A stretch of 22,574 nt of DNA from a virus. The stretch lies in IMG/VR virus record IMGVR_UViG_3300022748_000332, positions 1-22,574 of that record. One strand, 5' to 3'. Shown in pieces: positions 7,271 through 16,999 of this stretch. Position 1 is the first letter of the stretch. Every line of letters starts with the position of its first letter. The notes below the pieces were generated by a model, which saw only the letters and a program-made list of their open reading frames with translations, was not told the DNA's origin and made no database searches. The position numbers and the translations under genes were made by a program.

Positions 7271-8288
<1,018 letters not shown>

Positions 8289-8328
8289 GAAAAGCCCCAG
8301 TACGCTAGTACGTGGGGCTTTTCTTTTA
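8289..8328. terminator. Bidirectional terminator between convergent operons
   Basis: GAAAAGCCCC (8289-8298) pairs with GGGGCTTTTC (8314-8323), with inner pairs GTAC / GTAC. T-runs lie on the 3' side for both strands. It ends the rightward collagen-like gene and the leftward phoH-dps operon; its right edge touches the stop codon of the leftward dps. Confidence 0.92.
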
Positions 8329-8757
8329 CATGGAACTGCGCAACATCCAGCAGTGTTTTTCATGCGCATCAATGCGCTCTGCTAGGAAGTTCTCGAAACC
8401 ATATTTACCATAAATATCACATAGGTTATATGCTTCTTTTAGTGCAGTAATTAGGGTTTCACCGTCATTATATAGTTGAGTTACCATTTCATCTTTGCTA
8501 GGAGCACTGTTTTGCTCAGTAATAGCTGCGATAGAAATTAGTTCTGCTAAACTATTAGGTACATCGATTTGTAGTGTACGTGTCTTTTCTGCGAAATCGT
8601 CAACACTACCATATACTTCATCATAGATTTTCTCAAATAGAGCATGATACTCTTGGAAATCTTTATCCTTTACGTTCCAGTGAAAGGCGTGAGCTTTATA
8701 ATAGTATAGAACTGTTGAAGCAAATGCCTTAAGCACTGCTTTATTTAATTCTTCCAT
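8326..8757 (-). CDS. Dps-like mini-ferritin (second copy)
   Basis: A 143-residue paralogue of the 7271-7726 protein, sharing AFAST near the start, HWNV, FAE, DEM and the C-terminal NFL-ER-D-H-KH-WML pattern. The ferroxidase ligands His26, His38, Asp53 and Glu57 are in Dps register, so iron oxidation should be possible. It follows phoH by 8 bases, its AAGGAT ribosome site overlaps the phoH stop, and the operon is read from promoter P3. The gene ends at the shared two-way terminator. The two copies could form separate or mixed cages; the sequence does not tell which. Confidence in the fold is high, in physiological role moderate. Confidence 0.85.
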   Translation of the reverse strand: MEELNKAVLKAFASTVLYYYKAHAFHWNVKDKDFQEYHALFEKIYDEVYGSVDDFAEKTRTLQIDVPNSLAELISIAAITEQNSAPSKDEMVTQLYNDGETLITALKEAYNLCDIYGKYGFENFLAERIDAHEKHCWMLRSSM

Positions 8758-13983: not shown

Positions 13984-14601
13984 TTATGCTCCGAAAATGT
14001 GTAAAGCGTGTTCGTAATGTTTCTTACGATCCTCTAAGCCAATAGTTCCGCCATTAATGCGTTTTGTTAAAGTTAAGATATCACCACGATCTGCCCATTG
14101 GTTTAAGTTGTTGGTTTCCCAGAACCAGCACGCGCTTTGGGCTGCACCTTCAAACGTTTCCATATAGGCGCTGGCTTCTTCAGGAGAGATTTCCAGGCTA
14201 GCTGCAAACCAAGAATAATTATCCTTACCAGTAAGCTGAATAAGCCCACGGCCACAATAACGATAGCCATCACCACTAGCCTCATCGCCATTACCCATGC
14301 GATTAGCATATACACGGTTAGCAATAGCCTCGGGCTTGCCCGCAAATTGTTGAGCCATTTCATCGGTTGGGAAATACTTAGGGAAGATCTTGCGTAGTGT
14401 AGCTGCACGATAGTTCAAGTTTTCCTTGATGGCGGTGAAACCGCCCGATTCGTGTGCACACTGCGCTAAAAACGCTGCCATACGTTGAGGCGTATCAATT
14501 TGATAATCAGGCAGTAGCTGTTCTAGTGCGTGATGCCAATACGTAACGTATGGGTTGCGTGGAATAATTTGTCTTAACTGCTCAAGTGTTAGTTGGGTCA
14601 T
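13984..14601 (-). CDS. GH19 (chitinase-like) endolysin
   Basis: A 205-residue glycoside-hydrolase-19 peptidoglycan hydrolase that cuts the cell-wall glycan at lysis. It shows AHESGGF with Glu51, Glu60 in KENLNY, ANRMGNGD, the strong motif YCGRGLIQLTG (115-125, Thr124) and RINGG-GLEDR. The Glu51/Glu60/Thr124 pattern has about the same spacing as the catalytic triad reported for SPN1S endolysin (Glu49, Glu58, Thr118). It has no signal peptide, so it needs a holin. GAGGAG lies ahead of the ATG, and the start overlaps the o-spanin stop (ATGA). The order i-spanin, o-spanin, endolysin is a complete wall and outer-membrane lysis set. Confidence 0.93.
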   Translation of the reverse strand: MTQLTLEQLRQIIPRNPYVTYWHHALEQLLPDYQIDTPQRMAAFLAQCAHESGGFTAIKENLNYRAATLRKIFPKYFPTDEMAQQFAGKPEAIANRVYANRMGNGDEASGDGYRYCGRGLIQLTGKDNYSWFAASLEISPEEASAYMETFEGAAQSACWFWETNNLNQWADRGDILTLTKRINGGTIGLEDRKKHYEHALHIFGA

Positions 14602-14855
14602 TTAAGCTCCTCGAATAGTTTTTTCTGCTTACTATACCAATCCTGCCAGCCTTCGACTAGTGCGGAGCAGTTGTAGTATTCAGTGTAGTTCTCGACTACA
14701 GTCTTAGTTAGGTCTGATAGCTTAGCAGTATCAGACGCTTGTTTAAGCGGAGGACATTGTGTTTGTAAAATACTGGGTGCTTCTGGAAATTTGGCAGTAA
14801 CTGGCACAGTAGTGCAACCTGCTAAAAGCAATAAAAGTACTAAAGCGTATTTCAT
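14598..14855 (-). CDS. Outer-membrane spanin lipoprotein (Rz1/LysC-like)
   Basis: An 85-residue lipoprotein: a hydrophobic signal followed by the lipobox LAGC with lipid-modified Cys14, then a mature chain of 72 residues. The segment CPPLKQASD followed by a helix with a second Cys and a Trp-rich end is the pattern of proteobacterial phage o-spanins. Anchored in the outer membrane, it joins the inner-membrane spanin to fuse the two membranes after wall breakdown. It overlaps both neighbours by four bases (ATGA), so the three lysis genes are translationally linked. Confidence 0.82.
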   Translation of the reverse strand: MKYALVLLLLLAGCTTVPVTAKFPEAPSILQTQCPPLKQASDTAKLSDLTKTVVENYTEYYNCSALVEGWQDWYSKQKKLFEELK

Positions 14856-15262
14856 TTCTTAGCTGCCTTATTTAAAGAGTCGATAACTTCGTGCGGTATT
14901 TCGCACTTAGAGTCATATTTTACTACTTCTCGGTCCACGTACTTAATTATATCGTTGGCTTTCTCACGCACAACTTCTCGCTTAGTGACAATTTTTTCGA
15001 CAACTTTTAAATTTTCATTGGCCGACTTAGCCTCTAGTTCGGAAACTTTCTTTTCCAAAACGGCTACTTTTTTCAGCCAAGCCTCGTTGTTCGATATTGC
15101 ACCGGTCATGTAGGTACCCAAAAAAACCAAAGCTATACCCGTATTTCGAATAATTCCACTATAAGGAATTTTCGAAAATGTTTTACCAACCAAATACCCT
15201 ACAATACCCAAAAAGAATACTGCTGAGAATATCCAGCCTGGTACAAATTGTAGAATCCACAT
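14852..15262 (-). CDS. Inner-membrane spanin (Rz-like) with two membrane helices
   Basis: A 136-residue protein with hydrophobic segments at about 5-26 and 38-57, a coiled coil at about 60-108, and a C-terminal CEIPHEVIDSLNKAAKK motif, a common ending of phage i-spanins. It directly precedes the lipoprotein o-spanin, the expected partner. Two membrane helices are unusual, because classic Rz has one; the extra one may indicate a different topology or a holin-spanin mix. AAGG precedes the ATG. The spanin call rests on the motif and the neighbour. Confidence 0.72.
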   Translation of the reverse strand: MWILQFVPGWIFSAVFFLGIVGYLVGKTFSKIPYSGIIRNTGIALVFLGTYMTGAISNNEAWLKKVAVLEKKVSELEAKSANENLKVVEKIVTKREVVREKANDIIKYVDREVVKYDSKCEIPHEVIDSLNKAAKK

Positions 15263-15263
15263 A

Positions 15264-15362
15264 TTATTTACCTTGTGAGTACGCAGCTAAATATTCTAAG
15301 AGTTCAGTTTCATACTTCTGGAAATAGCTCTTTATGTATGTACTCATGAACTTGGTCATCAT
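15264..15362 (-). CDS. Possible 32-residue small ORF overlapping the bilin reductase end
   Basis: An open frame beginning with two adjacent ATGs (15362, 15359), with AGGA a few bases ahead, running past the bilin reductase stop codon and ending two bases before the i-spanin ATG. The peptide is amphipathic (YIKSYFQKYETELLEYLAA). The part after 15310 fills the whole gap between the two genes in a coding-like way. It may be a real small protein, a coupling leader for the spanin gene, or chance. No family recognised. Confidence 0.35.
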   Translation of the reverse strand: MMTKFMSTYIKSYFQKYETELLEYLAAYSQGK

Positions 15363-15996
15363 TAAATCCTAGTGTTTTTAATACTCTTGGAGTATGTGGG
15401 TTACATTTCTGCTGTTGGCAGTAATAATTCTGCTGTTCGGTAAAGTCAAAACGCTTTACCTGATCGTCATAAGTCATATTAGGACGATGTTTCTTTATAT
15501 TGTCTAGGTAGTGTACAAGGGACTTTTTAGAAATCTCTAGTATTATGTCTAGTTCAAAATCTGTGTTAATATTACCAGCCGCTACCATTCGTGGGCTAAA
15601 TATATTACGAGCCCATTCGGGCAGTTCACGCGGTTTTGCCCACGATGTTGGTTCTACTAGTTCTTCAAACCACTTGCATAACGGATGCTCACGATCACCT
15701 GTAGGTGAGAAGTCTAAGAACGCTCCAGTTATCTTGCTTGTGCCTGCTACAATATCAAAACCGTAAATAGGAGCACTATCAAATACATGTGGAAATACAC
15801 ATAAGTGCATCATGTATAGCTTTTTGGATTCACTTACGTCAATAACGTCTAAGTTAGCACGTCGAAACCAACAGTTGCTAAAATTCTTGGTGTACCAATC
15901 CGAGGTGATTTCAGGAGGCGAAAAAAAAGCTCGTGCGCTAAGAATCGATTCCAATTCTAGCGCATGAGCTTTAAGTTTATTGAATATTGTGCTCAT
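15310..15996 (-). CDS. pcyX: Ferredoxin-dependent bilin reductase, PcyA/PcyX-like
   Basis: Reduces biliverdin from heme oxygenase to a phycobilin with electrons from ferredoxin. The 228-residue length fits the family. The core at residues 60-98 (MHLCVFPH, APIYGFDIVAG, ITGAFLDFSP) matches the PcyA substrate pocket: His64 and Asp81 are 17 apart, like PcyA His88 and Asp105. The C-terminal YYCQQQKCN and RVLKTLGF segments also match PcyA. The position of PcyA Glu76, needed for reduction of the 18-vinyl group to phycocyanobilin, appears to be Ile52. That fits PcyX, the phage branch reported to make phycoerythrobilin by four-electron reduction, better than true PcyA. The start overlaps heme oxygenase by 20 bases without a strong ribosome site, so translation is coupled. 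No ferredoxin is in the window, so the host would supply it. The exact product is inferred. Confidence 0.88.
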   Translation of the reverse strand: MSTIFNKLKAHALELESILSARAFFSPPEITSDWYTKNFSNCWFRRANLDVIDVSESKKLYMMHLCVFPHVFDSAPIYGFDIVAGTSKITGAFLDFSPTGDREHPLCKWFEELVEPTSWAKPRELPEWARNIFSPRMVAAGNINTDFELDIILEISKKSLVHYLDNIKKHRPNMTYDDQVKRFDFTEQQNYYCQQQKCNPHTPRVLKTLGFNDDQVHEYIHKELFPEV

Positions 15997-16522
15997 CTGC
16001 TAACTCGTCAAATAAGTTAAAGATTAGCTCAAAACAGTGATTAGCTTCAGGCGCTAAATCGTCACTAAGCTTTGTGCGCAGTGCTTTAATAGTATCGTTT
16101 CGATTTTCAAACTCATACATCTTGCCGCTACCAGGGATTACACGTTTGATCATCTGACCACCGTACATATCGCCCATATGACGAACGTATAAGTGTGCAA
16201 GCAAACCTTTGTCGTTTAGGGTATCTAAATGCTCGACATAAGCTGTGGTAGCTGGATACGTTTCTGCAAGTGGAGGAAATCCTAGACCGCGAATAAGTTC
16301 TTGTAGGTCTTCGTAGATGCCTGGTGTACGGCAGATACCTGGTAAGTCACCTAGCAATCCACGAGAGTTACATAACTGCTCTAGCTTCTTGTAAGCAGCT
16401 AGTTGATTAAATAAGTAATCGTAGTAAATCTTTTTGGATATAGCACCGCTAATTAATAAGCGAGTAAACCGGTGAGCTTCTGCAGCTTCATGATTGTTAT
16501 GGGTTAAATCTTTTAATGACAT
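15977..16522 (-). CDS. ho: Heme oxygenase (biliverdin-forming)
   Basis: Opens heme to biliverdin IX-alpha, CO and Fe(II). It has 181 residues, shorter than cyanobacterial HO1 (about 240) because the C-terminal part is reduced. The proximal heme ligand is His11 in the HEAAE motif. The distal-helix signature YVRHMGDMYGGQMIKR (112-127) matches the HO pattern, with Asp118 as the catalytic Asp of the GDxxGG turn. There is no membrane tail, as in bacterial soluble enzymes. It is the first gene of a two-gene cassette with the bilin reductase, placed between a tail-fibre chaperone and the spanins. It lacks the usual AAGGA site of its neighbours: the nearest AAGG is 20 bases away, inside a hairpin stem. 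It has no alternative start. Confidence 0.93.
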   Translation of the reverse strand: MSLKDLTHNNHEAAEAHRFTRLLISGAISKKIYYDYLFNQLAAYKKLEQLCNSRGLLGDLPGICRTPGIYEDLQELIRGLGFPPLAETYPATTAYVEHLDTLNDKGLLAHLYVRHMGDMYGGQMIKRVIPGSGKMYEFENRNDTIKALRTKLSDDLAPEANHCFELIFNLFDELADEHNIQ

Positions 16523-16529
16523 GGTTAAG

Positions 16530-16551
16530 AATAAGGGCCGAAGCCCTTATT
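16530..16551 (-). other. UUCG-capped hairpin before heme oxygenase
   Basis: Read leftward, AATAAGGGC, TTCG, GCCCTTATT form a perfect 9-bp stem with the very stable C(UUCG)G loop. It starts on the stop codon of the tail-fibre chaperone and ends 7 bases before the heme oxygenase ATG. No T-run follows, so it is a weak terminator at best. It more likely stabilises the upstream RNA end or controls heme oxygenase translation. Confidence 0.8.
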
Positions 16552-16999
16552 ATTTAGTTGGTTTAACAGGCCAAGTAATATCTTCAGCAACTACCGCAGT
16601 AGCAAATTCTGTAGTCATATTACGCAGGGCTTGGCGGTAGGCCGCCCATTCTGCCTTTTTAGGTGCAGTTAGGGGAGCATCTGCAGTTTGAGTCCAATCA
16701 CTTGCAACTAGTTCAAAATCACGTCTACGACGAATAAGTTCATCTAGAAGTTCGTTTTGATCAAGTGTAGTAACTGTCCAATCTATAGAATATTCTCCAT
16801 TATCCTTTTTGGAATAACCAGAGTACTCTGCACGCTGGTTAGGGGCTAATTCTGGTTTAGCTTCCAAAATAGGAACATAGCCAAAAGCAGCTACTTTTTC
16901 ATCGGAAAATTCACCTTCAATTAAAAAAACTAAATTTTCTTTTAATACAGGGTAACCAATAGCGTTACCAGATTCATCAATTTGAATATAATAATTCAT
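16550..16999 (-). CDS. Tail-fibre assembly chaperone
   Basis: A 149-residue protein of the gp38/Tfa-like type that helps fold or attach the preceding fibre tip. The C-terminal half has the family pattern: RRRDFELVASDWTQTADAP, then KKAEWAAYRQALR and a final DITWPVKP. The N-terminal 60 residues are a beta-rich cap. It follows the glycine-rich adhesin by 8 bases, with AAGGAT on the adhesin stop codon. It is the second such protein here; the other follows the 18542 fibre. The pairing suggests each fibre carries its own helper. Confidence 0.8.
   Translation of the reverse strand: MNYYIQIDESGNAIGYPVLKENLVFLIEGEFSDEKVAAFGYVPILEAKPELAPNQRAEYSGYSKKDNGEYSIDWTVTTLDQNELLDELIRRRRDFELVASDWTQTADAPLTAPKKAEWAAYRQALRNMTTEFATAVVAEDITWPVKPTK

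Follow-up and report, generated by a model that had tools for sequence, protein, structure and literature searches.

The main finding of this study is a pair of overlapping genes, encoding a heme oxygenase (HO) and a ferredoxin-dependent bilin reductase (FDBR), in a 22,574-base viral fragment from IMG/VR, which at its full length is called the window below. The gene pair is accessory cargo of the phage. On balance, we favor its interpretation as an auxiliary metabolic cassette of two genes, carried by a T5-like phage with probable hosts among betaproteobacteria, in which the reduced bilin, likely phycoerythrobilin (PEB) made with the help of the host ferredoxin, would be the selected output. 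The features of the window considered here are listed in Table 1. The coordinates, strand, and 20-base overlap of the two genes in the initial annotation all agree with the ORF coordinates.

Table 1. Features of the window: the hemO–pcyX pair, its neighborhood, and the Dps/ferritin-like genes
Feature	Coordinates	Strand	Evidence
hemO, heme oxygenase, 181 aa	15977..16522	(-)	PF01126, HO matches in PDB, motif conservation over 86 HOs
pcyX-like ferredoxin-dependent bilin reductase (FDBR), 228 aa	15310..15996	(-)	PF05996, 5OWG, AlphaFold, Foldseek, residues
20-base overlap of hemO and the reductase gene	15977..15996	(-)	ORF coordinates
Tail-fibre assembly chaperone, upstream neighbor	16550..16999	(-)	PF16778 (E=1.6e-15), phrog_4912
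Terminator-like hairpin AATAAGGGC-TTCG-GCCCTTATT, junction of the tail chaperone gene and hemO	16530..16551	(-)	pattern scan (listed on the + strand)
Candidate Rz-like inner-membrane spanin, downstream neighbor (inferred)	14852..15262	(-)	adjoins the Rz1 candidate, one N-terminal hydrophobic stretch, phrog_4952 only
Candidate Rz1-like spanin lipoprotein	14598..14855	(-)	phrog_456 (E=2e-6); LysC 23.8 bits, below the cut-off of 27
Endolysin	13984..14601	(-)	phrog_181 (E=4.6e-77)
Dps/ferritin-like protein	7271-7726	(+)	Pfam Ferritin, phrog_3636, HWN...H...D..AE pattern
Dps/ferritin-like protein	8326-8757	(-)	Pfam Ferritin, phrog_3636, HWN...H...D..AE pattern

The product of hemO matches the Pfam profile PF01126 (E=3.8e-16; 60 bits with a cut-off of 23), and its matches to HOs among the PDB sequences have E-values down to 2.9e-9. 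It possesses the proximal His11 and, in the distal helix, the motif GDMYGG at residues 117-122, that is, the features of HO-1 type heme oxygenases. All 86 aligned HOs have His11 and the two glycines of GDxxGG, and 85 of them also have Asp118. Hence the profile and the alignment bear out the assignment that had been made from His11, Asp118, and GDxxGG. The vHemO protein of the freshwater phage CB_2 was shown by assay to open heme to biliverdin IX-alpha (PMC11480375).

The reductase gene directly follows hemO on the same strand of this phage genome. Its product matches PF05996 (E=1.2e-20; 74.6 bits with a cut-off of 31), and the best PDB sequence match is the phage PcyX 5OWG (E=2.2e-53), with PcyA far behind (2e-13). 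The AlphaFold model, built on an alignment of the window and IMG/VR sequences only, has pLDDT of 90.9 and pTM of 0.90; in a Foldseek search with this model PcyA and PcyX rank first, and PebB, PebA, HY2, and PebS are also found. Both the profile match and the fold thus identify the protein as an FDBR. His64 and Asp81 are aligned with the catalytic H88 and D105 of PcyA, and Asp50 with Asp55 of PcyX. The latter is the PcyX-specific residue, replaced by Glu76 in PcyA (PMC11480375). Among 73 aligned reductases, Asp occupies this position in the phage PcyX-like group and PebS, whereas Glu is found in cyanobacterial, cyanophage, and Falsiroseomonas PcyA, in the L159 sequence, and in a subgroup of phages (L123, L132, L140, L141, L151, and L156). 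The reductases of this subgroup, to which L133 also belongs, sit among the phage PcyX-like sequences, and their Glu suggests a PCB-type product, like that of the CB_2 enzyme. The position of His74 in PcyA is occupied by Asn48 in the window reductase; Asn at this position is shared by the window lineage with one more subgroup, 17 of the 73 sequences in total. The site has been studied in PcyA, as His74 mutants are present in PDB (4eoc, 4eod, and 4eoe), and no report of Asn as a natural variant was found.

In the phylogenetic tree, the phage reductases lie together on one side of a branch with SH-aLRT of 97. The position of the long branch of cyanobacterial PcyA is not robust, and the AU test does not reject its joining the window lineage (p 0.6). 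A topology with the window lineage as a private sister of marine PcyX, grouped with Mosig and 5OWG alone, was rejected (p 1e-5). The protein therefore lies inside the FDBR family, as the initial annotation had proposed, and the label "PcyX-like" given there is fair, considering the match to 5OWG, the PcyX-type Asp50, and the location on the phage side of the tree. Since the PcyX-specific Asp is retained, PEB is predicted as the likeliest product, with the general proviso that products of FDBRs are not reliably predictable from sequence (PMC13193486).

The pair is on the same strand as the tail-fibre genes and is flanked by the tail chaperone gene on one side, and by the Rz/Rz1-like spanin genes and then the endolysin gene on the other. 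Its location between a tail-fibre chaperone and spanins had been claimed at the outset; PF16778 confirms the former, and the latter stand as Rz/Rz1-like candidates. The placement among late genes, also claimed, is supported by the position among tail and lysis genes of the same strand. Late read-through expression is not certain, however, as a terminator-like hairpin is situated just before hemO, with few bases left before the start codon. This hairpin is palindromic and hence readable on either strand, and it may insulate or attenuate the cassette. Comparable hairpins occupy the same place in L025, L034, and L058; the structure thus recurs in four loci, with differing sequences.

The possibility that the cassette is a core gene set of the lineage was rejected, as within 7 kb it is found in five of 62 endolysin-anchored loci with room (at least eight, if one counts contigs L199, L200, and L218, which carry it further away) and in one of 18 phoH-anchored loci. 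In the majority of close relatives that have room at this site, other cargo takes the place of the cassette. The slot upstream of the Rz-like gene (L182-L339) accommodates tail chaperones, glycosyl- and methyltransferases, TPR proteins, and one fatty-acid desaturase. Among the 25 families listed for this slot in cassette-free relatives, none is a further heme or bilin gene.

The two genes of the cassette are rarely separated. The FDBR has 58 IMG/VR relatives, and HO is encoded directly upstream in nearly all of them, which excludes chance. A search with HO only produced 76 viral loci, and the reductase gene, usually overlapping or abutting, is present in 71 of the 73 loci with room, redundancy between contigs included; the two loci without an FDBR within about 3 kb are L129 and L130. 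A similar overlap is seen in most relatives and in phage Mosig, and translational coupling of the two genes is possible. Both genes evolve under purifying selection, which is stronger on the reductase: in pairs whose synonymous sites are not saturated, the median dN/dS of the reductase is about 0.08, and that of HO about 0.18. Within the lineage, the reductase is better conserved than HO in 483 of 496 pairs. The greater variation of HO may be caused by recombination rather than weaker need.

The pairing and the stronger constraint on the reductase argue that the reduced bilin is the selected output rather than waste, and disfavor iron release as the sole function. Thus, of the roles originally listed for the pigment, that of a by-product of heme destruction becomes less likely. 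For the same reasons we consider it unlikely that the cassette serves to free iron from host heme for iron proteins of the phage or host, with the reductase merely clearing the product-inhibiting biliverdin. Such an iron supply has been discussed for cassettes of this kind (PMC11480375), and the window encodes two Dps/ferritin-like proteins; but HO almost never occurs without the reductase, and no gene for another iron-handling step resides in the cargo slot. Coupling of the cassette to iron through the Dps genes was itself rejected, as Dps homologs occur in relatives both with and without the cassette.

Several unusual loci were observed in the course of this comparison. In L112 (3584-4444), as well as L113 and L114, an unrelated 286-aa ORF is inserted between the HO and FDBR genes, breaking the usual overlap. 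Two very large viral contigs, L124 (381,886 bases) and L145 (222,055 bases), possibly from jumbo phages, carry the pair. In phage-like contigs binned with bacterial MAGs (L161:780-2861 and L163:3090-5131) the pair follows genes for small heat-shock protein- and ClpS-like proteins. FDBR matches in MAGs of Pirellulales, Halobacteroidaceae, Arcticimaribacter, and Neomarinimicrobiota appear to be phage sequence assigned to the wrong bin.

The phage lineage was identified using G002, a near relative of 128 kb with an 85% identical reductase and 18 genes common to the window; the terminase gene terL and the DNA polymerase gene, absent from the window, are both present in it. TerL of G002 is 49-50% identical to that of Vibrio phages of about 114 kb, and the DNA polymerase is 48.7% identical to that of pVp-1, all of which we take to be T5-type. 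Of the 175 genes of G002, 16 have matches in Mosig. Judged by TerL and the polymerase of this relative, whose closest counterparts are those of T5-like phages, the window lineage is T5-like, not T4-like.

Full-length permuted tmRNA genes were found in 13 of 28 contigs, scoring 79-143 bits with the betaproteobacterial model and 29-68 bits with the alphaproteobacterial one; nine of them exceed the cut-off of the former. Eleven of these contigs are phoH- or cassette-linked relatives of the window, while the two largest (L197 and L198) share only lysis genes; the relative G027 is an exception to the betaproteobacterial-type pattern, and the window itself contains no tmRNA gene. The betaproteobacterial cut-off is exceeded in a single bacterium among 398 Pseudomonadota genomes (251 bits, tag ANDERFALAA), the others having at most 73 bits. 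Tags in this style, such as ANDSQFALAA and ANDETFALAA, are also encoded by the phages. A separate observation is that T5-like aquatic phages (L066:19473-19888, L343-L352) have tmRNA genes of the permuted, two-piece betaproteobacterial type. Assignment of the host by a DNA match to tmRNA was rejected, as only short tRNA-like pieces matched one-piece tmRNAs. From the tmRNA type, betaproteobacteria are the likely hosts, and a host with phycobilisomes is unlikely, with the proviso that the tmRNA of a phage does not always fit its host (PMC9004378). The suggestion that the window comes from a proteobacterial phage is therefore supported and narrowed to a T5-like lineage with betaproteobacterial-type tmRNA.

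The resemblance of the tail fibre protein to its cyanophage counterparts could hint at a cyanobacterial host whose phycobilisomes are kept supplied during infection. We regard this as highly improbable, as TerL, the polymerase, and tmRNA suggest that the lineage is one of T5-like phages with proteobacterial hosts, and cyanophage PcyA has Glu where the window enzyme has Asp. Further, neither the window nor the 27 related contigs, most of which are fragments, yielded a phycobiliprotein over the family cut-off, the phycobilisome match in G437 being sub-threshold.

The same set of contigs, again mostly fragments, contains no ferredoxin, ALA synthase, or phytochrome (PHY) domain, and the reductase presumably uses the ferredoxin of the host. 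It is also quite unlikely, in our opinion, that a bacteriophytochrome of the host receives the bilin as its chromophore and signals differently during infection. This option, raised in the initial annotation, gains from Falsiroseomonas and Roseomonas relatives, alphaproteobacteria in which a phytochrome-like ORF adjoins the HO and FDBR genes and the genomes carry PHY domains, and from the CB_2 pair, which can load phytochrome in E. coli (PMC11480375). It loses from the lack of PHY domains in the phage contigs, from their occurrence over the cut-off in only 19 of 200 genomes of the order that includes the bacterium with the matching tmRNA, and from the presence of the pair in the SAR11 phage Mosig; the CB_2 enzyme, moreover, is a PcyA with Glu instead of Asp.

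The function that we favor, that is, production of a reduced bilin, could proceed as follows. In the late phase of infection, HemO would open host heme to yield biliverdin IX-alpha, CO, and iron. The PcyX-type reductase, probably translationally coupled, would use host ferredoxin for a four-electron reduction of biliverdin, the likeliest route being through 15,16-dihydrobiliverdin to PEB. This bilin, rather than iron release alone, is probably what is selected for; without a use in light harvesting, it might be a ligand of a bilin-binding protein of the host or phage, or a redox or light protectant. We tentatively extend this to a broader proposal, which is possible but less secure: phages of non-photosynthetic betaproteobacteria may produce PEB at a late stage of infection and put it to a use outside photosynthesis (for instance, as a ligand of a bilin-binding protein, encoded by the phage or the host, or for protection against light or redox stress), and this pair would have been acquired by two or more phage lineages that are unrelated, one T4-like and one T5-like.

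The hemO–pcyX pair as such is already known from marine phages, among them Mosig, an isolated phage of SAR11. New is its occurrence in a T5-like phage lineage and, probably, in a new host class; a literature search, though not exhaustive, found no published description of hemO–pcyX in T5-like phages. The known range of PcyX-type enzymes thereby comes to include a second group of phages. Why phages of heterotrophs carry genes for bilin synthesis is a question recognized as open (PMC11480375). The present lineage, with its many members, near-constant pairing of the two genes, and probable betaproteobacterial hosts, allows it to be tested by single-gene comparisons, for which close relatives devoid of the cassette provide natural controls.

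Among known systems, PebS and cyanophage PcyA have the FDBR fold, and PebS, a single enzyme, also makes PEB, but their identity to the window reductase is 19% and 23-27%, respectively, and in P-SSM2 and P-SSM4 HO and FDBR are not encoded as such an overlapping pair. The alphaproteobacterial PcyA of Falsiroseomonas (L166-L170) neighbors HO, as in the window, but it has Glu, not Asp, is accompanied by the phytochrome gene bphP, and is 26-29% identical. Alphaproteobacterial PcyA and reductases of the window type belong to the same AX branch (PMC10151467).

In the freshwater phage CB_2, vHemO and vPcyA/X also combine an HO with an FDBR in a presumed non-cyanobacterial host; both enzymes are active, and their purpose was called enigmatic (PMC11480375). 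The PcyX Asp of the window reductase is missing from the CB_2 enzyme, whose product is PCB (PMC11480375), and the CB_2 pair is accompanied by an ALA synthase gene, for which the window and 27 related contigs have no counterpart. PcyX EBK42635 (5OWG), about 46% identical over the aligned part, coincides with the window reductase in the PcyX-type Asp, the His, and the second Asp, and differs from it at the PcyA His74 position, where the window has Asn.

Finally, the Pelagibacter phage Mosig EXVC030M (MT647606) is a T4-like SAR11 phage, with FDBR 43% and HO 34% identical to those of the window. Its cassette is followed by neck genes, not spanins, and has 2OG-Fe(II) oxygenases and ferrochelatase as neighbors; Mosig also encodes its own 2Fe-2S ferredoxin, whereas none was found in the window. 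Nevertheless, as in the window, its HO and FDBR genes overlap, have the same order, and are located behind tail-fibre genes, and the reductase carries the PcyX-type Asp.
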